45,712 bases of DNA, from positions 1-45,712 of the IMG/VR virus record IMGVR_UViG_3300020466_000008; one strand, given 5' to 3'. Source of the stretch: a virus. The notes below the pieces were generated by a model. The model ran no database searches, had not been told where the DNA came from, and saw nothing but the letters and a program-made list of their open reading frames with translations. Both the position numbers and the translations under genes were made by a program. This document shows positions 2,674 through 45,712 of this stretch, in pieces (the first letter of the stretch is position 1; each line of letters starts with the position of its first letter).

Positions 2674-2847
2674 TCAGAACATAGCAGGCTCGCTAACAAC
2701 GTCCCAAGAAGTTTCTGGTTTGTTAAGAACAATCGCATTAGTTTCAGCAGTCAACTTACCCTCGCCAACGACAGCATCAAGAATCTTGAGAATCTCGTTA
2801 CCAGTCTTGCCACGACGGAGAAGCTCGACCATGAGTTTAGTAGACAT
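2674..2847 (-). CDS. Hypothetical early protein (57 aa)
   Basis: A 57-codon frame beginning with an amphipathic helix (residues 4-32) rich in Leu, Gly and Lys, then an acidic C-terminal segment. It is the first well-supported gene after the strong promoter at 2874-2902, whose predicted start site is about 20 bases upstream of the ATG. It resembles small proteins I associate with cyanophage early regions, but I cannot name a function. Confidence 0.65.
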   Translation of the reverse strand: MSTKLMVELLRRGKTGNEILKILDAVVGEGKLTAETNAIVLNKPETSWDVVSEPAMF

Positions 2848-2873
2848 GAAGTGTTGTTTGAGTTGATGTGTAC

Positions 2874-2902
2874 AATATACAGGATCAGAGCGTGAATGTC
2901 AA
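2874..2902 (-). promoter_or_regulatory. Consensus sigma-70 promoter (early promoter 2)
   Basis: On the minus strand: a perfect -35 TTGACA (2897-2902), a 17-base spacer, and -10 TATATT (2874-2879). Transcription would start near 2867 and run into the 57-residue early gene. A TGTACA hexamer (2869-2874) overlaps the -10 edge, one of three in the region. In T7-like phages such promoters let the host polymerase read the early genes before the phage polymerase is made. Confidence 0.75.
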
Positions 2903-2997
2903 GAGGTGCCGACCAGTTGCTGGATTGGCTGAGTGATGTTGGACTCATCTCCCTCACCTGTGTACACAGTGTAGCAAATTCTGAGGCCTGTGCTCAT
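2899..2997 (-). CDS. Possible 32-residue peptide
   Basis: An ATG-started 32-codon frame lies between the operator-like palindrome and the promoter at 2874-2902, and its stop overlaps the -35 element. It has no Shine-Dalgarno sequence and no recognised motif. It could be a leader peptide or chance. Confidence 0.25.
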   Translation of the reverse strand: MSTGLRICYTVYTGEGDESNITQPIQQLVGTS

Positions 2998-3002
2998 TTA
3001 TT

Positions 3003-3024
3003 GTGCCACTTGTACAGGTGTCAC
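3003..3024. promoter_or_regulatory. 22-bp quasi-palindrome, operator candidate
   Basis: The sequence GTGCCACTTGTACAGGTGTC plus AC is a palindrome with only two mismatched pairs, centred on TGTACA. The same TGTACA core recurs in a 12-bp palindrome at 2958-2969 and at 2869-2874 next to the promoter. The clustering around early promoters suggests a regulator-binding site. Confidence 0.45.
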
Positions 3025-3068
3025 ATCAGTATAACTAACTCAACGCTGGTCCATAGTGTCTAACCGTG

Positions 3069-3116
3069 TGTTGATAGTGAATTATAATTAAACAGTGTTG
3101 TTTTACATCGCAACAG
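3069..3116. repeat. Partial copies of the 24-bp repeat
   Basis: The second unit begins CAGTGTTGTTT at 3093, identical over 11 bases to unit 2 of the main array. The bases before it (GAATTATAATTAAA) match the AT-rich half of the same unit. It lies between the two early promoters. Confidence 0.45.
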
Positions 3117-30645: not shown

Positions 30646-30793
30646 TTTTTTTCTTAGCAGTTTTTGCAGATTGTTTGAAATTGGCTGCCGTAGGAGCACC
30701 TTTGCTCCCAGGCTTCCTCATTTTTTCACCACTACCTTTTGCGATACGTTCGCGCTTGGCGTGGATGTTTGCATACAAACCTTGTTTAGCCAT
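30638..30793 (-). CDS. Small basic protein with Arg-Lys-Pro-Gly-Ser motif (51 aa)
   Basis: A 51-codon frame with a Met-Arg-Lys-Pro-Gly-Ser-Lys-Gly-Ala-Pro-Thr segment at 25-35, which I recognise from a conserved phage domain (DUF6321-like). Its ATG overlaps the hli stop (TAATG). It is probably a nucleic-acid-binding or virion-associated peptide. Confidence 0.65.
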   Translation of the reverse strand: MAKQGLYANIHAKRERIAKGSGEKMRKPGSKGAPTAANFKQSAKTAKKKNA

Positions 30794-30963
30794 TACCAGA
30801 ATCCTGGAATAAGTTGACCGGTTACAGCATAGGAGCCGATCGCAGCGATGACTCCCAGCATAGCTAGGCGCCCGTTAAGGCGCTCAGCTTTTTCGTTATG
30901 TGGGACTGAGTTTTCGTCGATGTACATGCGGGGTTCAGTAGGCCAAATTTGTGTGTCGTTCAT
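30793..30963 (-). CDS. hli: High-light-inducible protein (Hli)
   Basis: A 56-residue protein with the Hli signature: Ala-Glu-Arg-x-Asn-Gly-Arg-x-Ala-Met-x-Gly at residues 27-38, then one membrane helix (to about 50) ending in Pro-Gly-Phe-Trp. Hli proteins bind chlorophyll and carotenoid and protect photosystem II under light stress. The start shares one base with the psbA stop (TAATG), so both are made from one mRNA during infection. Confidence 0.92.
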   Translation of the reverse strand: MNDTQIWPTEPRMYIDENSVPHNEKAERLNGRLAMLGVIAAIGSYAVTGQLIPGFW

Positions 30964-32042
30964 TAAGCAATAGCGGGTGCAGTGAGAGCAATGGGAGTGG
31001 ACTCAGCAGCTGCCAAGTCAAGAGGGAAGTTGTGAGCATTACGTTCATGCATCACCTCCATCCCCAAACCTTGACGGTTCAGAATGTCAGCCCAAGTAGG
31101 AATGACACGGTTAGAACTGTCAATGATAGATTGATTAAAGTTGAATCCATTTAGATTGAATGCCATAGTGCTTACCCCCAAAGAAGTAAACCAAATACCA
31201 ACAACTGGCCAAGCAGCAAGAAAGAAATGCAGACTGCGTGAGTTGTTGAAGCTGGCGTATTGAAAAATGAGTCTACCAAAGTAACCATGAGCTGCTACAA
31301 TATTGTACGTTTCTTCTTCCTGGCCAAACTTGTAGCCTTGGTTCTGACTAACTGTTTCAGTAGTCTCACGAACCAGAGAAGAAGTAACAAGACTACCATG
31401 CATGGCGCTAAACAAACTGCCGCCAAAAACACCAGCGACCCCAAGCATATGGAAAGGGTGCATAAGAATGTTATGCTCAGCTTGAAATACCAGCATGTAG
31501 TTGAAGGTACCCGAGATTCCCAGCGGCATTCCATCAGAGAAGCTGCCTTGTCCAAAAGGATAGACAAGGAATACAGCTGTTGCAGCAGCAACTGGTGCGG
31601 AGTATGCGACAAAGATCCAGGGCCTCATCCCAAGTCGGTAACTAAGTTCCCATTCGCGTCCCATATAAGCGAAGACGCCAAGGAGAAAGTGGAAGACAAC
31701 AAGCTGGTATGGTCCTCCGTTGTAGAGCCATTCACTAAGTGAGTTGGCTTCCCAGATGGGGTAAAAGTGGAGCCCGATTGCGTTACTAGAGGGTACGACG
31801 GCTCCTGAAATGATGTTGTTTCCATAGAGGAGTGCTCCTGAAACTGGTTCTCTAATTCCATCGATGTCTACTGGAGGTGCAGCGATAAACGCAATGATAA
31901 AACAGGTAGTTGCGGCAAGCAACGCGGGGATCATCAAGACCCCGAAGTGTCCAACGTAAAGTCGGTTGTCAGTACTTGTCACCCAGTTGAGATAGTTATC
32001 CCACAGTGATGACTGCTGACGTGTAGCAATAGTAGCAGCCAT
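30963..32042 (-). CDS. psbA: Photosystem II D1 protein
   Basis: The reaction-centre protein D1, 359 residues and full length. Key residues are in place: Tyr161 (TyrZ), Asp170 and the C-terminal Asp342/Ala344 of the Mn cluster, His190 and His198. Residue 130 is Glu, the form found in high-light D1 isoforms. A 15-residue extension after Ala344 would be removed by CtpA. Five membrane helices are expected in the host thylakoid. Phage D1 replaces damaged host D1 and keeps photosynthesis running. It sits 11 bases after the scaffold gene and heads a cassette with hli and small basic genes. No own promoter is evident. Confidence 0.98.
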
Positions 32043-35093: not shown

Positions 35094-35784
35094 TGGAGTG
35101 TTCGAAGAAAGCAGGCATTCTGGCCCGCTGTGTTTCTAAAAGACCTTCGGCTTTCCCTGCGTACATTAAAGAGTCGCTTTGATCGAGCCAAAATTTTTTG
35201 TCTAAATATTTATCGGTAGTATTTATACCTAATGGCTGCATAATCCAGTTAATGGTAGCTTTACGCAGCTTATCAAGGGAGGGGGAAATTGTCAAGCCCA
35301 GCTCCCTGGAAACCAAGGAATTACATGCAACGTGGACCTGTTCGTCTCGGCTTATGTCGGCACTGACTGTTCGCATTCCTGGATCACCATTAAATCGCAG
35401 GAACGGGAGGAGCACGAAAAAAATCGCACGCTCGGCAACCATCGCTTTGAGGATTGTGTGATCAGGATGAGCAACCCACGCGTCTCTGAGTCTGATGGCT
35501 TCGGCTTCAGCTTTTTCATCAACCCCGAAAGAATTGGCGATGTAACCGAGAGCAAGGTCGTGCTTTTCCTCGTCTTTAACGTTGGATAGGAGTAGATCAC
35601 GCGCCGATTCAGGGACATCATTTTCGAGAGCATCTTGTATAAAATCTCCTACGGGGAGTTCCATGTGCCGTATGGCAAGGGCTCGGTAGATAGTTTCCTC
35701 CGAGCCTTCGCGCACCTTGCCAGCAGTTGTCTGCACTGGAGTCCAGGTGCGCTTTCGATTAAGTAGTTTTGTATAAGGGTTCAT
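35068..35784 (-). CDS. Ferritin-like diiron protein, candidate ribonucleotide reductase beta subunit
   Basis: A 238-residue helical protein starting in an ATGA overlap with the RNR alpha gene. It carries two ExxH motifs, Glu72-x-x-His75 and Glu148-x-x-His151, plus Glu42 and Glu118 at plausible spacing, a full six-ligand dimetal site. At the place of the radical Tyr of class I beta subunits (four after the first His) there is Leu79. Tyr81 is close by. NrdB-type subunits generate the radical that alpha uses. It is shorter than usual NrdB (about 340-375). I recall a published reassignment of the related P-SSP7 enzyme from class II to class I with such an unannotated partner, which fits this gene. 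Confidence 0.72.
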   Translation of the reverse strand: MNPYTKLLNRKRTWTPVQTTAGKVREGSEETIYRALAIRHMELPVGDFIQDALENDVPESARDLLLSNVKDEEKHDLALGYIANSFGVDEKAEAEAIRLRDAWVAHPDHTILKAMVAERAIFFVLLPFLRFNGDPGMRTVSADISRDEQVHVACNSLVSRELGLTISPSLDKLRKATINWIMQPLGINTTDKYLDKKFWLDQSDSLMYAGKAEGLLETQRARMPAFFEHSNVNLPQYA

Positions 35785-37160
35785 TCGCCGCAATTACAAT
35801 CAGGAACAGGGGATAGAAGTTCCTCCAGGTAATCATCAACATCAGCTTCATCTAGAGCAGCATAAACGTTGCTCTTGTCTTGAGTGTCATGCATAACCTG
35901 CAAGGAATAGTAAAGGGAAGTTTGCGGTGAAGCTAACCACTCTTCGACGAATTCATTGTCGTAGGTTACAATATCACTCCAAGAGTTGAAACTGTATCCG
36001 TGAAGAAGTCCCGTGTTATTAAGCAGCGTCATCAAACCATCCGCTACTTTTTTGTATGCAGCCCAACCGACTTCACTAGCGATTTCAACATCGCCGTAGT
36101 CGTAGGACTCAACTCCAAACGTCCCGCTGTCTCGATCGACGGTGCGGGAGATAGGTGGAGCAATTTCTGGGGTAGTAGTAAAGCCATCAGTATCTTTGTA
36201 CCGGTAGCTGCAGGAGGCCGTAGGAGCCACTGCAAATGCCCTGACCATGCCATGGTCCCGAGCCACCTCTGCAGCCGCCTTGATGGCGGTCTGAAAGGCC
36301 TCTGCGAGGGCGTATCCAGCGGAAGCGGACAGCCTGCCACGGTTCAGATCCTCTAGACCTTGACCGAACTCTTTGTAAGATACTTTGTATCGTCGCAGCA
36401 TGTTGGCAAGTCCAAGCATACCGAGACCAACTTGACGATCTACCTCTGGAGACAGGTATTCACCTGATTCCTCGATGTTTGTTTTAGAGTGCAGCTCACA
36501 CAGCTGCCTCATACCTTCTACAAAGGCAGGCTCAAGATCACCCACAGTAGCAGCGCCACAGTTAATATGCTGCAGCAAGCAAGTACCACGGGAAGGTAGA
36601 TAAACCTCCAAACAAACGTTACCATAAATTCGGTCGCCATTTTTATCGTATTTAATTTTGTTTAACCAGATGTCGCCTTGACGAATACCACGTAGCAGGT
36701 CTTCCTTTGTTTGGGGAGATGACTCATCCCACATGGTCTGGTTCAAGTTAACACAACGCTTAACCCACGGCAACTCGTGACGTGGAACGTTGATAAAGTC
36801 AAGAATATCAGGGTGCGAGAGGTCCAAATGACACACTACGGCACCGTTTTTGTACACTCCGCCGCGACGGAGAATCTCATTGAGGGTACTGTAAATTTTA
36901 GCGAAGCTAACCGGCCCTGAAGCTACAAGTCCATTTTTGTTCTCAGAACCTTTTGGACGGAGCTTTGTCAGGTGGACAGCACAGCCTGCGCCAAAACGCA
37001 GAGCATGGCTGACAAAACGCCAAGACGCTTCAATACCGTTTTCTCCCTCGATGCTGTCCTCCACGGAAAAAACCGTGCAGCTGACAGGTAATCTGGAAGT
37101 GGGATCATCGATCCAAGATTGTACGCGCCCAGTGCGGGCTACAAGATCGGAAATACTCAT
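35781..37160 (-). CDS. Ribonucleotide reductase catalytic subunit (compact)
   Basis: It reduces ribonucleotides to deoxyribonucleotides. The 459-residue chain is compact. It has the radical/catalytic loop Asn181-x-Cys183-x-Glu185, redox Cys28 and Cys201, and a C-terminal Cys455-x-Cys457 pair that would shuttle electrons. Related cyanopodovirus enzymes were first called class II (B12-dependent). The overlapping dimetal-protein gene instead suggests a class I enzyme. The start lies 3 bases after the MazG-like gene. With ThyX, exonuclease and MazG it feeds phage DNA synthesis. Confidence 0.92.
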   Translation of the reverse strand: MSISDLVARTGRVQSWIDDPTSRLPVSCTVFSVEDSIEGENGIEASWRFVSHALRFGAGCAVHLTKLRPKGSENKNGLVASGPVSFAKIYSTLNEILRRGGVYKNGAVVCHLDLSHPDILDFINVPRHELPWVKRCVNLNQTMWDESSPQTKEDLLRGIRQGDIWLNKIKYDKNGDRIYGNVCLEVYLPSRGTCLLQHINCGAATVGDLEPAFVEGMRQLCELHSKTNIEESGEYLSPEVDRQVGLGMLGLANMLRRYKVSYKEFGQGLEDLNRGRLSASAGYALAEAFQTAIKAAAEVARDHGMVRAFAVAPTASCSYRYKDTDGFTTTPEIAPPISRTVDRDSGTFGVESYDYGDVEIASEVGWAAYKKVADGLMTLLNNTGLLHGYSFNSWSDIVTYDNEFVEEWLASPQTSLYYSLQVMHDTQDKSNVYAALDEADVDDYLEELLSPVPDCNCGE

Positions 37161-37163
37161 TAT

Positions 37164-37532
37164 TTAAACTAGGTCTGACAGGTTGGGTGGTTCGTAATTT
37201 GGTCCTTTTAGGACTTTACCATCTTTACGGTAAATTGGTTTGCCGTCATTATCGAGTTTACTCATGTTACTTTTATGGACACGGCGCAATGCTTGCTCCA
37301 AGTCCCAGTCCATGTTCTCAGCGTACTGAGCACAAACATACACTAGATCGGCTAGTTCTTTGAGGCAGTCAGCACGGCTACTGATGTCCATCATAGCCAT
37401 GTTGTAATCTGCTTCAATAAACTCTTTGAATTCTTCAACGATCAAATTCTTCTGCATAAGGCGTCGGTTCAAATCGTTCCGTATACCGTAGGAGTTCCGG
37501 AACTCGATCGCTTGGTTGCTGAGCAGTGACAT
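37164..37532 (-). CDS. MazG-like nucleotide pyrophosphohydrolase
   Basis: A 122-residue all-helical protein with the MazG metal motif: Glu33-Glu34-x-x-Glu37 and Glu59-Leu-Ala-Asp62. The C-terminal part (His-x-Ser-Asn-Met-Ser-Lys) fits the MazG-like/HisE-like group of phages. Such enzymes hydrolyse NTPs or ppGpp-type alarmones, which could keep the host in a growth state. It overlaps the DUF3310 gene by 98 bases, unusually long. Confidence 0.82.
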   Translation of the reverse strand: MSLLSNQAIEFRNSYGIRNDLNRRLMQKNLIVEEFKEFIEADYNMAMMDISSRADCLKELADLVYVCAQYAENMDWDLEQALRRVHKSNMSKLDNDGKPIYRKDGKVLKGPNYEPPNLSDLV

Positions 37533-37713
37533 ATTTCAGTTCGTTGGTGAGGTAGTGAATTGCTTTTTCTAAGTCTTCGACATAATTGTCTTTGTATCCA
37601 GCTCGGCAGATGTATTTTACCGCATTGCCTAAGTGGTAGGATAGTTCTTGATCACGAATAAAGTCCCATACTTCGATGGATCCGCGTCGGTAATAGTCTG
37701 GGGAGTGGGCCAT
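37435..37713 (-). CDS. DUF3310 protein (T7 gp1.7-like nucleotide kinase family)
   Basis: A 92-residue protein with the DUF3310 core: Gly-x-Ile-Glu-Val-x-Asp-Phe-Ile, then Leu-Gly-Asn-Ala-x-Lys-Tyr-Ile-x-Arg-Ala-Gly and Asp-Leu-x-Lys/Glu-Ala-x-x-Tyr-Leu. T7 gp1.7 of this family is a dTMP/dGMP kinase, so a role in dNTP supply is likely. It overlaps the NblA-like gene by 85 bases and the MazG-like gene by 98. Confidence 0.85.
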   Translation of the reverse strand: MAHSPDYYRRGSIEVWDFIRDQELSYHLGNAVKYICRAGYKDNYVEDLEKAIHYLTNELKYVTAQQPSDRVPELLRYTERFEPTPYAEEFDR

Positions 37714-37871
37714 TCTTTAAGCAGTTGCTTAACTGTATTTGTTAGTGCGTAGTTTTGTCGTTGTAGTGCCATAAGGATGGTAATAATGTCATCCTTAGAA
37801 GCTTTAGGTAGGAGGTCTTCAAGCCGCTTCAGTGCGAACTCCTGCTCCATTGTTGGTTGTGTTACGGGCAT
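37629..37871 (-). CDS. nblA: NblA-like phycobilisome degradation adaptor
   Basis: NblA brings Clp protease to phycobiliproteins and starts phycobilisome breakdown. The frame contains Met-Glu-Gln-Glu-Phe-x-Leu-Lys, then a helix with Ser-Lys-Asp-Asp and Leu-x-Arg-Gln-Asn, ending in Val-Lys-Gln-Leu-Leu-Lys, the full NblA pattern in about 50 residues. I chose the ATG at 37869-37871, which gives the usual short N-terminus. An upstream ATG at 37913 (14 more codons) is possible. The C-terminus after Leu-Leu-Lys has about 25 extra residues inside the DUF3310 gene. An NblA that is active has been described from an uncultured marine cyanophage, and Microcystis phage Ma-LMM01 also has one. Confidence 0.72.
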   Translation of the reverse strand: MPVTQPTMEQEFALKRLEDLLPKASKDDIITILMALQRQNYALTNTVKQLLKEWPTPQTITDADPSKYGTLFVIKNYPTT

Positions 37872-38589
37872 CGGGGGGAGTCCAGTAGAGGATTTGTTTT
37901 CGTCCGGCGTCATAATGTTCGTTATGTAGAATCTTTGCCAGTCGAGCATTCAGTAAAGCATCGTCTTCCGACAATCCCTTAGCTTTGTAAGCCTTGACTA
38001 CAGTATCCCATGTACAGCCATCTTTGTCAAGCAGTGCTGCTGCACGCTTAACGCCGATACCAGGGATGCCACTGTAACCATCTGTTTGGTCTCCTGACAT
38101 TGTTTGAATAAGATGCCAACGTTCTGCTTCCTCAGGTGTGATAGTGATAACACCATCGGACAGGTCAAATAAATCTCCTGGGATTTGACGCATATCCTTG
38201 TCAGGAGAAACGACTATATTACCAGGGTGCCTTGTTGCATAGATACCAATAGCATCATCAGCTTCAAGGAATGGGTGAATAATAACGTGGTGCTCTTTCT
38301 TCAGTTGGTTAATCGCTCTTCGGTAACCACAGGGCTTCTTTCGATTACGGTGTCCTTTATACGCTGGATAGAGTAATTTACGAAAGTTGCGGCTACTAGA
38401 AAAGAAAAGAATAAAATCATCGAAACATCCAAGATCACTTGCGATGTCATAGAGGTTTGATTCGATTGTTTCCATGACTTCGGAGAATCTGGAGGTGACG
38501 ACGATAACGTCGTTTCCGAAATCAATTTCTGTCTCGCAGGCTGCACAGGCCTTGTAGACGATGTAGTCTGCATCAATTAGTAGTGTCAT
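37819..38589 (-). CDS. 5'-3' exonuclease (T7 gp6-like, FEN family)
   Basis: A 256-residue FEN-type nuclease that removes RNA primers and degrades host DNA. Metal-binding acids are seen at Asp5/Asp7, in Leu-Glu-Ala-Asp-Asp near 108-112, and Ser-Pro-Asp-Lys-Asp near 128-132. The helix-hairpin-helix Gly-Ile-Pro-Gly-Ile-Gly-Val follows near 173-179. The last 17 residues lie after a C6 run (minus strand). One more C would end the protein eight residues after that run with a short overlap into nblA, so the tail may be an artefact. Confidence 0.9.
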   Translation of the reverse strand: MTLLIDADYIVYKACAACETEIDFGNDVIVVTSRFSEVMETIESNLYDIASDLGCFDDFILFFSSSRNFRKLLYPAYKGHRNRKKPCGYRRAINQLKKEHHVIIHPFLEADDAIGIYATRHPGNIVVSPDKDMRQIPGDLFDLSDGVITITPEEAERWHLIQTMSGDQTDGYSGIPGIGVKRAAALLDKDGCTWDTVVKAYKAKGLSEDDALLNARLAKILHNEHYDAGRKQILYWTPPDARNTTNNGAGVRTEAA

Positions 38590-38590
38590 A

Positions 38591-39862
38591 TTAGTGTACC
38601 TCTGCCCAATTTACACCAATTTTGCCTTCGGCTGCAATAGGACAGCGTATGTTGTAGAACTCTCCAGCAAGTGTAGCGGATAGTTCCAGAGCAAATTTAA
38701 GTTCATCGGCTTGAGGTGGGTGGCATTCATATTGCAATTCGTCATGTACAAACGCTAGTTGCGATGCACACAAGTTTGTTTCTTTAACAGTGTCGTTAGC
38801 TATGACTAACCATTTCTTCGCCAAAGATGCGCTAGACCCTTGTAGTAGAAAGTTGAGTGCTTTATGCGGTGAGTCAACGTTAAGTCGTCTTCCATCAATC
38901 GCGTTAACATAGCCACGATCAGCCGCAGTTTGAACAGCAGCAAGTAGGTCAGCAAGACCCGGAATGGCTTCGATATAAGCCTTGCGAATCTCTTTGCCTT
39001 TTGCTTTAGCCTGTGAAGGGGGGAGTTGCTTGTCATAGCTTAATCCAATTTTAATGTCTCCAGCGCCGTAGAGGAAGGCGTAAGTAACTGTTTTGACGAG
39101 TTTCCTACTGATTCCAATTTTGTCTGCATTGGTTTGATGTATGTCGCCGGTGAGGAGAATGTGTGCATAACGACCCTCATCGTAGCGATGAAGATAATGG
39201 GAGAGCATACGAAGCTCAATACCAGCAAGGTCCGCACCCACCAGTATTTGTCCGGGCGTGGCGGTAAATAATTGTCTAAATCGTTCGTCACTAGGCGTCT
39301 GCGCAAGGTTTGGGTTTCGGTGGGCACAACGGCCCGTGTTAGTAGCTACACTACAATGGTGGTGGATGCGTTTAGATCTCGTAACAAGCTTCAGCCAGGC
39401 GTTCTTCCCTTCGGAGAGCATCCCTAACATCTTCGTAATCTCCAGCATCCTCAAGAACGAGAGCGCCAGGTCGGTTCCAATATCCTTCAAAGATGTTTCG
39501 TCTACGATAGGCTTCCCAGTAGCTGTCAAAGCGGTGGGGATCCATCCGCTGTGTGTCTTCAATATCCATGCTATGTGGTCCCGTGATGTGGGGTTAAACT
39601 CCTTCAGTCGTGTAAATTCGGCACCTGCGATGTAGCCTTTGCTTTTGTTATCTCGCTTAGGAGTGAATCTCTGTCCTGGGACGAGAGGGTACCGCTTTCG
39701 TAGTAGTGAATCAATGTTTTCAAGTTCAGTTCGGAGAGCTGATGCAAGTTCCCATGCAGCTCGTTCATCAAAATACCATCCATGTTGTTCCTGTGCAGTT
39801 AATATAGTAGCTACTTGGTGCTCCATTTGGAGCCAGTCAGGTAGGGGAGGAAATGCTTCCAT
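38591..39862 (-). CDS. DNA polymerase, polymerase domain (family A, T7 gp5-like)
   Basis: The thumb, palm and fingers of a T7-type DNA polymerase (423 residues). Motif A reads Ala-Asp-Leu-Ala-Gly-x-Glu-Leu-Arg, motif B Lys-Thr-Val-x-Tyr-x-Phe-Leu-Tyr-Gly-Ala-Gly, motif C Val-His-Asp-Glu. The exonuclease domain is in a separate frame upstream, overlapping by 52 bases. Adding one C to a C4 run (39844-39847) would fuse both into a single protein of about 590 residues with a natural linker, so the split is either real or a one-base assembly error. Confidence 0.93.
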   Translation of the reverse strand: MEAFPPLPDWLQMEHQVATILTAQEQHGWYFDERAAWELASALRTELENIDSLLRKRYPLVPGQRFTPKRDNKSKGYIAGAEFTRLKEFNPTSRDHIAWILKTHSGWIPTALTATGKPIVDETSLKDIGTDLALSFLRMLEITKMLGMLSEGKNAWLKLVTRSKRIHHHCSVATNTGRCAHRNPNLAQTPSDERFRQLFTATPGQILVGADLAGIELRMLSHYLHRYDEGRYAHILLTGDIHQTNADKIGISRKLVKTVTYAFLYGAGDIKIGLSYDKQLPPSQAKAKGKEIRKAYIEAIPGLADLLAAVQTAADRGYVNAIDGRRLNVDSPHKALNFLLQGSSASLAKKWLVIANDTVKETNLCASQLAFVHDELQYECHPPQADELKFALELSATLAGEFYNIRCPIAAEGKIGVNWAEVH

Positions 39863-40335
39863 AATTTACGTGTTACAACAACGTCTTGTGCCATATAATC
39901 TTCCATCTCTTGACTCCATGAATCCCACGCTGTTTCGATCTCAGCCTTATGTTCACCCAGGCGGTAACCGTAGGCTTTGAGACTGTGTGATCCGTACAGT
40001 TTAGCAGGCATGTCAAGCCATTTGCGTTTCTTATCAATGTCTAATAGATTAGCGTGATACACGTGAGACAGGATAAGAGTGTCAACTGCTTGACCTTTAA
40101 AGTCAAAGAATGGGTAGCATTTCTTAAGAGCCGGTAAATCGTAGTTAATAATGTTATGGCCGACCACATGTTCTGCTTCTTCAAGCATTGTGACAGCCCT
40201 TGTTATCGGTTCACCGGTTCCAACGTCGTTAAAGATTGAAGTCTGATCATTATCTATATCATAGATACAGACACAGTGAATAGAGCTTACATCTTTCAAA
40301 AGGCCATTAGCCTCAACGTCAAATACTAGGTTCAT
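39811..40335 (-). CDS. DNA polymerase, 3'-5' exonuclease domain
   Basis: A 174-residue DEDD proofreading domain: Asp6-x-Glu8 (ExoI), an Asn-x-x-x-Tyr-Asp-Leu-Pro element (ExoII) near 61-68, and Tyr-Met-Ala-Gln-Asp (ExoIII) near 148-152. The last residues after Phe-Leu-Pro (about 163) run on in a frame that stops 11 codons later, while the polymerase frame continues the expected linker. The start overlaps the previous small gene by 17 bases. Confidence 0.92.
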   Translation of the reverse strand: MNLVFDVEANGLLKDVSSIHCVCIYDIDNDQTSIFNDVGTGEPITRAVTMLEEAEHVVGHNIINYDLPALKKCYPFFDFKGQAVDTLILSHVYHANLLDIDKKRKWLDMPAKLYGSHSLKAYGYRLGEHKAEIETAWDSWSQEMEDYMAQDVVVTRKLWKHFLPYLTGSKWSTK

Positions 40336-43301: not shown

Positions 43302-45649
43302 TAGCAGAAAAAATAAGTAGAGTTAGTCACCATCTCGGGTTCAAGATCCCCGATCATAGGCGGTTCAGTTTCAGCGCCGATAGAATCAGCAAACTGTTTC
43401 AGGATTTCATGCTCTGCAAATAAGTGCAGGTAAGTTTCTCTGACGACGGATGATAGAGAATCCATGTCGCCAGCGCGGCATAAAACCGAATCGTGTATGA
43501 CGGCCAACGGGCCGTGAAAGCGGAGTGCAGAAATGTGGAGTAAGCTTGCATCAAGTGAATGTACTAAATTAGGTGCGGTTGCATTTTTATGATGTTTAAT
43601 ATCAACTTCGTCGCCTTGTTTAGCCACACTTACTTGACATCGACCCAGTAACTGGAGCGACAGCCTTTCAACTTCAAGCTTATTGAGTTTTTGGTGGACG
43701 ATAAAACCAGAGGGTGTTTTCCATTGAAGGAATCGATCCCCTCTCTTGATTGATTTAGCGACCTCCTCCTCAATCCATTTCATTACTGACATAGGACCAG
43801 GAAAGACCTTGTTCATGGCATCACGAACAGCAGTAACAATCTGTGTTAGCTCATCCTTATTCACTTCAACGTCAATCTCAGTAAAAGCATCACGTATGTA
43901 CTGACGGTTTGAATAAGGTTTAGCGTTATAACAAATTGTCATAACCGATCGTTTGGTTTTCTTACGATCCCAGTAAGGTCTCAATCGTTCCGGGATCTGA
44001 TCAACACTGGCTTCAGCGATAGCCTTGTAGGCATCCTGTGGCCGGTCACTAGGTAGGACATTAACCATCCGAGCTGTTGAGGCATCTTTTGCAAGACCTG
44101 CCAGGATTTGTAACCCTGAGCATGTTGCATCGACAGCAATTGGTAAGCGAGTGTAGTGCCTAGAACAATCAATAAAACAAGCATAGTAATCTTCACATGC
44201 AGCTAGGAAACACCACGGTTCAGAGACCTCCTCCCAATCGCCAATGTTACCAATCGGATCAGTAGCAACCCGCGTAATTAGCGCGTGATTGTGACTAACC
44301 CAATCGTGACGATCAGCAAGAGTAGCCTTGTCCAGACCATAAGTAGTAGCTACTTGAAACGACAACCATTTCTCATCTTCAGGGAATACAAAGGAAGCAT
44401 CCGCAAAGCTAAGTAATGATTTACCAAAGTCTGTATCTTGTGGTGTGAGAAATGCAGGTATTGGATACACCCTTCCGCGGTAATCGTAAGACCACGGCAG
44501 GTAGAATCGTTCCCGATCCTTAAATCTCCTAACAGCCTCCATCGTCATACGAGTACGACAACTCCTGCGAAAGGCTTGGCTATTTACATTGTTAACAAGA
44601 GCAGCCTTGCGCCTGTATGCGTGCCGAGATTCTTTGTTCTCTGCAATATCTACAGGTTTAGGAGGTAGTGGCATCTCAGTAATAGGAATAAACTTCCCCA
44701 CCTTAATCCCACTCTTCTCTAACTGTTCAGCTACTTCTACAATAAAGGGGTTTAACCTGTATCCTACTTTCTGGATACGGTTGAGAAATTCGTAGATTTC
44801 CTCCCCCTGTAATAGGGAGCTGTTACCCCGGCGGACCATATCGTGACCCTGCATAACCTCATTTAGTACATAGCCGCCTTGTGTATTAGGCGCCCAATCC
44901 TTTGGAGGTGTAACCATTGGCCACGCAAGCGGACTAAATAACTCGCAGTCATGCATGATGGTATCTTTCATGCGAGTGAACTCATCTGTAATGACTACAA
45001 AGTTTTCAGTCTTACGTCCGCGACGTTGGGATTCGATCGTAAACCACCCTGTTCCTTTGATAACTTGTTCAAGTAACCAGTTACCAATCTTGATGTTGTG
45101 GTTTGTGGACCATGATTCCCAAGCTGGTACATCAGCATTGTTCATAGCTTGTCGGGTATTCTTCAGCTTTTGCTGTGTACCCATGCCGCTATGTCCCTTC
45201 CAGTACTTCTTCTTGAGATACTCAAGTAAGCCTGGTGCCTCTGTTTCATAGTGTCGCATCTGACACTCATCCTGTACGGCTCTACCAATTGCAGCATTTA
45301 CTGTTGCAAGTAGTGAGTTGCGAGGTTTTGGTGAGCATACCTTATCGACTGTGACCTTGAGCGCAATGGACGCTAGAGCCAGTGATTCGATGTCATCGGT
45401 ATGTTTCCTTATCTCACGGAACGCAGGCCCGTTCTGGCCTCTTGCAAGGCGGTTTCGTGTGTCATTTATACAGTTGATGACAGAAGGTAGTTTAGCTTGG
45501 ATGCCATACGTTCCATACTCTGATGCACTAGCGTAATCTTTTTGCTCTAGTTTCTTGGTATTGGATTGTAGTTTATCCAGCCCTTTGCGTATCTGTTCAC
45601 GCTCAAGGGCGATCTGTTCTGCAATTAACAGTTCAGCTTGGTCGGGCAT
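43301..45649 (-). CDS. Single-subunit RNA polymerase (T7 gp1-like)
   Basis: This 782-residue DNA-directed RNA polymerase transcribes middle and late phage genes. Catalytic residues match T7: Asp507 (T7 D537) in Asp-Ala-Thr-Cys-Ser-Gly-Leu-Gln, Lys566 (K631), Tyr574 (Y639) and Asp720 (D812) in His-Asp-Ser. The Gly after the conserved Tyr is Asn575 here. The C-terminus ends Tyr-Phe-Phe-Cys instead of the T7 Phe-Ala-Phe-Ala. It is shorter than T7 gp1 (883), mainly in the N-terminal part. The upstream small gene overlaps its start by 17 bases. Confidence 0.96.
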   Translation of the reverse strand: MPDQAELLIAEQIALEREQIRKGLDKLQSNTKKLEQKDYASASEYGTYGIQAKLPSVINCINDTRNRLARGQNGPAFREIRKHTDDIESLALASIALKVTVDKVCSPKPRNSLLATVNAAIGRAVQDECQMRHYETEAPGLLEYLKKKYWKGHSGMGTQQKLKNTRQAMNNADVPAWESWSTNHNIKIGNWLLEQVIKGTGWFTIESQRRGRKTENFVVITDEFTRMKDTIMHDCELFSPLAWPMVTPPKDWAPNTQGGYVLNEVMQGHDMVRRGNSSLLQGEEIYEFLNRIQKVGYRLNPFIVEVAEQLEKSGIKVGKFIPITEMPLPPKPVDIAENKESRHAYRRKAALVNNVNSQAFRRSCRTRMTMEAVRRFKDRERFYLPWSYDYRGRVYPIPAFLTPQDTDFGKSLLSFADASFVFPEDEKWLSFQVATTYGLDKATLADRHDWVSHNHALITRVATDPIGNIGDWEEVSEPWCFLAACEDYYACFIDCSRHYTRLPIAVDATCSGLQILAGLAKDASTARMVNVLPSDRPQDAYKAIAEASVDQIPERLRPYWDRKKTKRSVMTICYNAKPYSNRQYIRDAFTEIDVEVNKDELTQIVTAVRDAMNKVFPGPMSVMKWIEEEVAKSIKRGDRFLQWKTPSGFIVHQKLNKLEVERLSLQLLGRCQVSVAKQGDEVDIKHHKNATAPNLVHSLDASLLHISALRFHGPLAVIHDSVLCRAGDMDSLSSVVRETYLHLFAEHEILKQFADSIGAETEPPMIGDLEPEMVTNSTYFFC

Positions 45650-45712
45650 AAGCGGTCGAGATGTCGTCTTTGAGTTGGTCCTGCATCAGTTGCAGCAGTT
45701 CAGCCTTGTGAT
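45399..45712. repeat. Right copy of near-identical contig ends
   Basis: The last 314 bases repeat bases 1-314 with 11 substitutions. They cover the first 84 codons of the complete RNA polymerase gene and the 3' part of the small gene before it. Joining the ends here restores the expected order early genes, small gene, RNA polymerase. Confidence 0.9.
45633..45712 (-). CDS. 3' part of the small early gene (second copy, cut by window edge)
   Basis: The same small protein that is complete at 235-348, here missing its first codons because the window ends. The overlapping residues are identical to the left copy, with two silent base changes. Confidence 0.6.
   Translation of the reverse strand, partial: HKAELLQLMQDQLKDDISTAYARPS

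Follow-up and report, generated by a model that had tools for sequence, protein, structure and literature searches.

A putative NblA adaptor gene between the exonuclease and DUF3310 genes of a marine T7-like cyanophage

The window analysed here, a stretch of 45,712 nucleotides of viral DNA, carries on its minus strand a short gene, very probably for a phage NblA, which as an adaptor would link the host Clp protease (ClpC) to phycobilisome proteins and so promote antenna breakdown in the infected host. Assignment of the protein to the NblA family is supported by profile comparisons and by its predicted secondary structure; by analogy with that family, the protein would be expected to bind ClpC and phycobiliproteins, to cause antenna degradation and to benefit the phage. 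The occurrence of nblA in marine cyanopodoviruses is already published, the gene being a further member of a known family and the genome one more uncultured lineage that carries it. PMC9602691 credits Nadel et al. 2019 with predicting the gene in 14 isolates of cyanopodoviruses and with showing that phage nblA from marine viral metagenomes, when expressed in S. elongatus, leads to phycobilin loss; the original prediction, which named as carriers Ma-LMM01 and one uncultured marine cyanophage, was too narrow by this account, far more phages being concerned. According to the summary in PMC12892361, Nadel et al. 2025 (Nature 648:434-442) found that oceanic cyanophage NblA degrades host light-harvesting complexes, and the same review, citing that work, describes NblA-bearing cyanophages as thought to reduce light harvesting by oceanic picocyanobacteria, with an effect put at up to 5% of photosynthetic light capture worldwide.

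Genome context and extent of the gene

The window belongs to a marine T7-like cyanophage (Autographiviridae), with a single-subunit RNA polymerase (PF00940), a DnaB-type primase-helicase, DNA polymerase A, endonuclease I, a head-tail connector and a capsid protein, and it represents a nearly complete genome, since direct terminal repeats of 300 nt stand at both ends (1-300 and 45399-45698; 96% identical, hence not identical copies). On the minus strand, the gene of interest follows a T7 gp6-like 5'-3' exonuclease (37819-38589; PF02739, E = 4e-11) and precedes a DUF3310 protein, often annotated as 'nucleotide kinase' (37435-37713; PF11753, E = 1e-14), a MazG/PRA-PH-like pyrophosphohydrolase (37164-37532; PF01503, E = 1.5e-7) and the large subunit of ribonucleotide reductase (RNR) (35781-37160; PF02867, E = 7e-22). 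Also on the minus strand are psbA, encoding the photosystem II D1 protein of 359 aa (30963-32042; PF00124, E = 2e-87), and a gene for a high-light-inducible-like protein of 56 aa (30793-30963; PF00504, E = 3e-4, just under the cut-off). Profile matches thus bear out a T7-like phage with psbA, an hli-like gene and nucleotide-supply genes beside nblA, as originally described. The DNA polymerase region (38591-40335) is divided between two frames overlapping by 52 nt, one for the polymerase and one for the 3'-5' exonuclease, a split likewise found in S-TIP37 and P-SSP7 and possibly reflecting a frameshift.

The order exonuclease–nblA–DUF3310–MazG–RNR is common to many marine T7-like cyanophage isolates, some of them missing single neighbours, and nblA occupies the same slot in S-TIP37, S-SBP1, S-RIP2 and others. 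In phages 9515-10a and NATL2A-133 the exonuclease gene overlaps DUF3310 directly with no nblA between them, and the gene therefore behaves as a cassette.

The open frame at 37629-37871 comprises 80 codons plus a stop on the minus strand (MPVTQPTMEQEFALKRLEDLLPKASKDDIITILMALQRQNYALTNTVKQLLKEWPTPQTITDADPSKYGTLFVIKNYPTT) and lies inside an open frame of 106 aa that begins at the ATG at 37949, plus-strand reading of the same interval being ruled out by in-frame stops. The frame first proposed, for which no strand had been given, is therefore real and on the minus strand, and all the motifs listed for it (EQEF, SKDD, LQRQN and LLK) are found in its 80 residues; its start at 37871 is probably wrong, the ATG at 37913 being likelier. 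From the latter, the gene would span 37629-37913 on the minus strand and encode 94 aa (MTPDENKSSTGLPPMPVTQPTMEQEF...). This start is probable because an in-frame ATG is retained upstream of the T-x-E-Q motif, at a distance of 10-24 codons (mostly 19-21), in 126 of the 127 unique relatives. The exonuclease codon overlapped by this ATG differs among relatives (TAT, GAT, CAT, AAT) and the ATG is constant, and the deposited gene of P-SSP7, PSSP7_019A, has the same ATG start. The M/V position of T-[MV]-E-Q was also considered as a start codon and was ruled out, as relatives have GTT, ACT, ACA or ATA there.

Overlapping frames and selection

Both ends of nblA overlap its neighbours on the minus strand, its N-terminal part sharing 95 nt with the 3' end of the exonuclease gene (37819-37913) and its tail 85 nt with the start of DUF3310 (37629-37713), whose ATG lies across the E53-W54 codons. 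As the short gene is packed between these two neighbours, it possesses an N-terminal extension and a tail, and only 35 of its codons (37714-37818, minus strand) are read in a single frame. In these non-overlapping codons, pN/pS calculated for each reading frame among 14 close relatives, whose pairs are not independent, is 0.10 in the nblA frame vs 1.26 and 5.85 for the remaining frames, and they are under strong purifying selection. Within the overlaps the values are rough, since each frame distorts the other, with 0.71 in the nblA frame vs 0.32 in the DUF3310 frame for the tail, and 0.50 in the nblA frame vs 1.94 in the exonuclease frame for the N-terminal stretch. These values suggest that the tail sequence is mostly dictated by the DUF3310 gene, and that the N-terminal stretch is constrained by nblA at least as much as by the exonuclease. 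The 25-residue tail, initially regarded as unusual, is consequently not an added domain; it corresponds to the overlap with the DUF3310 start.

That the frame might be an untranslated by-product of gene overlap is scarcely conceivable. Most of it does overlap the exonuclease and DUF3310 genes, and several GenBank records leave nblA unannotated, but the low pN/pS in its non-overlapping core relative to the alternative frames and the upstream ATG retained across relatives both argue for translation. In the GenBank records of S-TIP37, S-SBP1 and S-RIP2 no separate gene is annotated at the nblA position, probably because the overlaps at both ends hid it; in practice, annotation often misses nblA for having both ends within its neighbours. 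In S-RIP1, nblA (2699-3108) runs over two separate frames, and the DNA polymerase and exonuclease matches of that phage are broken in the same way; this nblA copy is either a pseudogene or the product of a sequencing error.

Relationship to the NblA family

In a profile search against Pfam NblA (PF04485), proposed with the original prediction, the protein exceeded the curated threshold of 25 with a score of 30.8 bits (E = 4e-7). The matched core domain spans T7-E53 of the 80-residue frame (37713-37853, minus strand) and positions 3-49 of the Pfam model. Three alignments were used, containing 24 window-like proteins, 26 cores including the Prochlorococcus-phage type, and 14 cyanobacterial NblAs. 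Pfam NblA was matched by each of the 24 window-like relatives (best E 1.2e-7), being the sole family to match all of them and the sole one above its curated cut-off for the window protein, which also matched PHROG 27006, a family with no stated function, at 5e-18. When the phage profile was compared by hhalign with that of the 14 cyanobacterial NblAs, probabilities of 86-88% and pairwise E values of 3e-6 to 5e-6 were obtained over 50-51 columns, which span the short domain in full. Searches against the PDB gave weaker signals: the best match of the 24-relative profile, itself weak, was Synechococcus NblA 3cs5 at E = 0.018, where as a yardstick the accepted NblAs 1ojh and 3cs5 match each other at E = 9e-4 only in a similar search, and single-sequence phmmer produced weak matches only, NblA among them at E = 1.7.

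Conserved residues point in the same direction, the EQxF start and LxK end aligning with NblA free of gaps. The N-terminal motif T-M-E-Q-E-F is present, with E, Q and F invariant in the 24 relatives; for NblA, a conserved N-terminal motif is reported as ClpC-binding (PMC4103541). At the C-terminal end L50-x-K52 is found, the leucine being invariant in the 24 window-like relatives and the lysine present in 50 of 53 unique window-type cores. We take L50 and K52 to be the counterparts of Anabaena NblA L51 and K53, known from mutant work on phycobiliprotein binding. The C-terminal lysine was also considered as a marker of phycobilisome binding and was dropped, this position being elsewhere occupied by E, D, K, T, S or others (T in S-TIP37). 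By tblastn, relatives were found in 37 phage records, all of them T7-like cyanophages or uncultured relatives and nearly all marine or estuarine, and relatives are encoded on at least 107 viral contigs; among cyanobacteria, NblA is present in 47 of 117 genomes surveyed.

Structure prediction, likewise suggested at the outset, yields for the 58-residue core a short helix (8-20) and a long one (26-53) joined by a loop, with a mean pLDDT of 85, an arrangement that, as far as secondary structure goes, agrees with published accounts of NblA as a helix-loop-helix (PMC7966870; PMC4103541); the 80-residue model has a mean pLDDT of 63. The outcomes named at the outset as refuting the prediction, no profile hit and a predicted fold of another kind, were thus not obtained at the sequence level. 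With both models, no NblA chain was listed among Foldseek and VIA-align matches, such searches being uninformative where the query is a helical hairpin; strong matches were absent altogether, and the best (VIA Z 4.5) was to unrelated small helical proteins. Considering that (i) small helical proteins weakly match many families, SpoVIF and Cnl2_NKP2 occurring among the matches of the relatives, (ii) Foldseek provided no NblA match, and (iii) PHROG 27006 has no assigned function, the protein might be no NblA homologue but a short helical hairpin resembling it by chance, with a role, as for its neighbours, in DNA or nucleotide metabolism. This is very improbable, since NblA alone is common to all 24 relatives and exceeds its curated cut-off, both ends of the core align with it, the profile-profile comparison agrees, and, according to PMC9602691, published studies have predicted and expressed related genes from marine phages.

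Host, target and comparison with known systems

In a DNA polymerase comparison, Synechococcus phages come nearest among isolates (66-69%), and, because the closest isolates of the window phage mostly infect Synechococcus, a Synechococcus-like, phycobilisome-bearing host is likely. In such a host, nblA would be made together with the replication and nucleotide-supply genes, and the infected cell would dismantle its antennae, which would free amino acids and cut light capture, while the phage psbA and hli products may keep photosystem II running.

The pointer to a phycobilisome-bearing host that was originally drawn from the gene holds as likely for this phage and is unsafe for the gene family as a whole, for Prochlorococcus has neither phycobilisomes nor nblA (PMC7439483), and its phages P-SSP7, P-SSP3, NATL1A-7 and, more diverged, P-GSP1 carry an NblA relative in the same slot; the nblA gene alone is thus no proof of such a host. 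Relatives sharing 62-100% identity with the P-SSP7 protein are encoded on a further 80 contigs. When tested, the proteins of P-SSP7, P-SSP3 and NATL1A-7, which carry a two-residue loop insertion, gave no match to Pfam NblA, and the P-GSP1 protein no longer has the Trp or the E of EQ. Given these diverged relatives in phages of a phycobilisome-free host, phycobilisomes may not be the target throughout the family; the relatives may act on something else, or their phages may also infect Synechococcus.

It follows that the window protein too could be a Clp adaptor of NblA fold whose main host target is a different pigment, defence or metabolic protein instead of the phycobilisome, a reading favoured by the retention of these relatives and yet quite unlikely here. 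The window protein is devoid of the insertion and falls in a group scoring over or near the Pfam cut-off, whereas the insertion-type proteins tested, those of Prochlorococcus phages among them, either fall short of it or give no match, and Synechococcus is the host of most of the closest isolates. A wider proposal, which we regard as doubtful, is that cyanopodovirus NblA is a general Clp-retargeting adaptor, directed at the antenna with phycobilisome-bearing hosts and re-aimed at other proteins in Prochlorococcus, the overlap-encoded N-terminal extension and tail perhaps helping to set the target. For the window phage, phycobilisome proteins are by far the likelier target.

Among known systems, the nblA genes of marine T7-like cyanophages (S-TIP37, S-SBP1, S-RIP2, S-CBP1/3/4; PHROG 27006) share with the window gene the same core and the same slot from exonuclease to DUF3310/MazG/RNR. 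The NblAs of S-TIP37 and S-SBP1 are 53-58% identical to the window protein (53% for S-TIP37), and the 2025 work of Nadel and colleagues reportedly used an nblA mutant of S-TIP37. The window clade differs from these phages in its longer, DUF3310-overlapping tail, and, unlike some members, it has no two-residue insertion in the loop. The relatives in P-SSP7, P-SSP3, NATL1A-7 and P-GSP1 show clear kinship to the phage family, the hosts of these phages having no phycobilisomes. In freshwater, the myoviruses Ma-LMM01 and MaMV-DC also bear NblA, theirs standing much nearer to cyanobacterial NblA than to the cyanopodovirus group (E = 1.4e-16 with the profile of the 14 cyanobacterial NblAs, 0.008 with the 26-core profile); in the region 1-683 examined from Microcystis phage Ma-LMM01, which is unrelated to the window phage, nblA directly adjoins the ribonucleotide reductase alpha gene and overlaps it. 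Cyanobacterial NblA itself (PF04485; Anabaena 1ojh, S. elongatus 3cs5) resembles the phage protein in its P-x-x-x-[LP]-[ST]-x-E-Q-x-F start, its helix-loop-helix and its C-terminal L-x-K, despite a low identity of about 24-25% to the phage family in the profile alignment, the phage protein having in addition an N-terminal extension and a tail, with the Trp near the end displaced by one residue.
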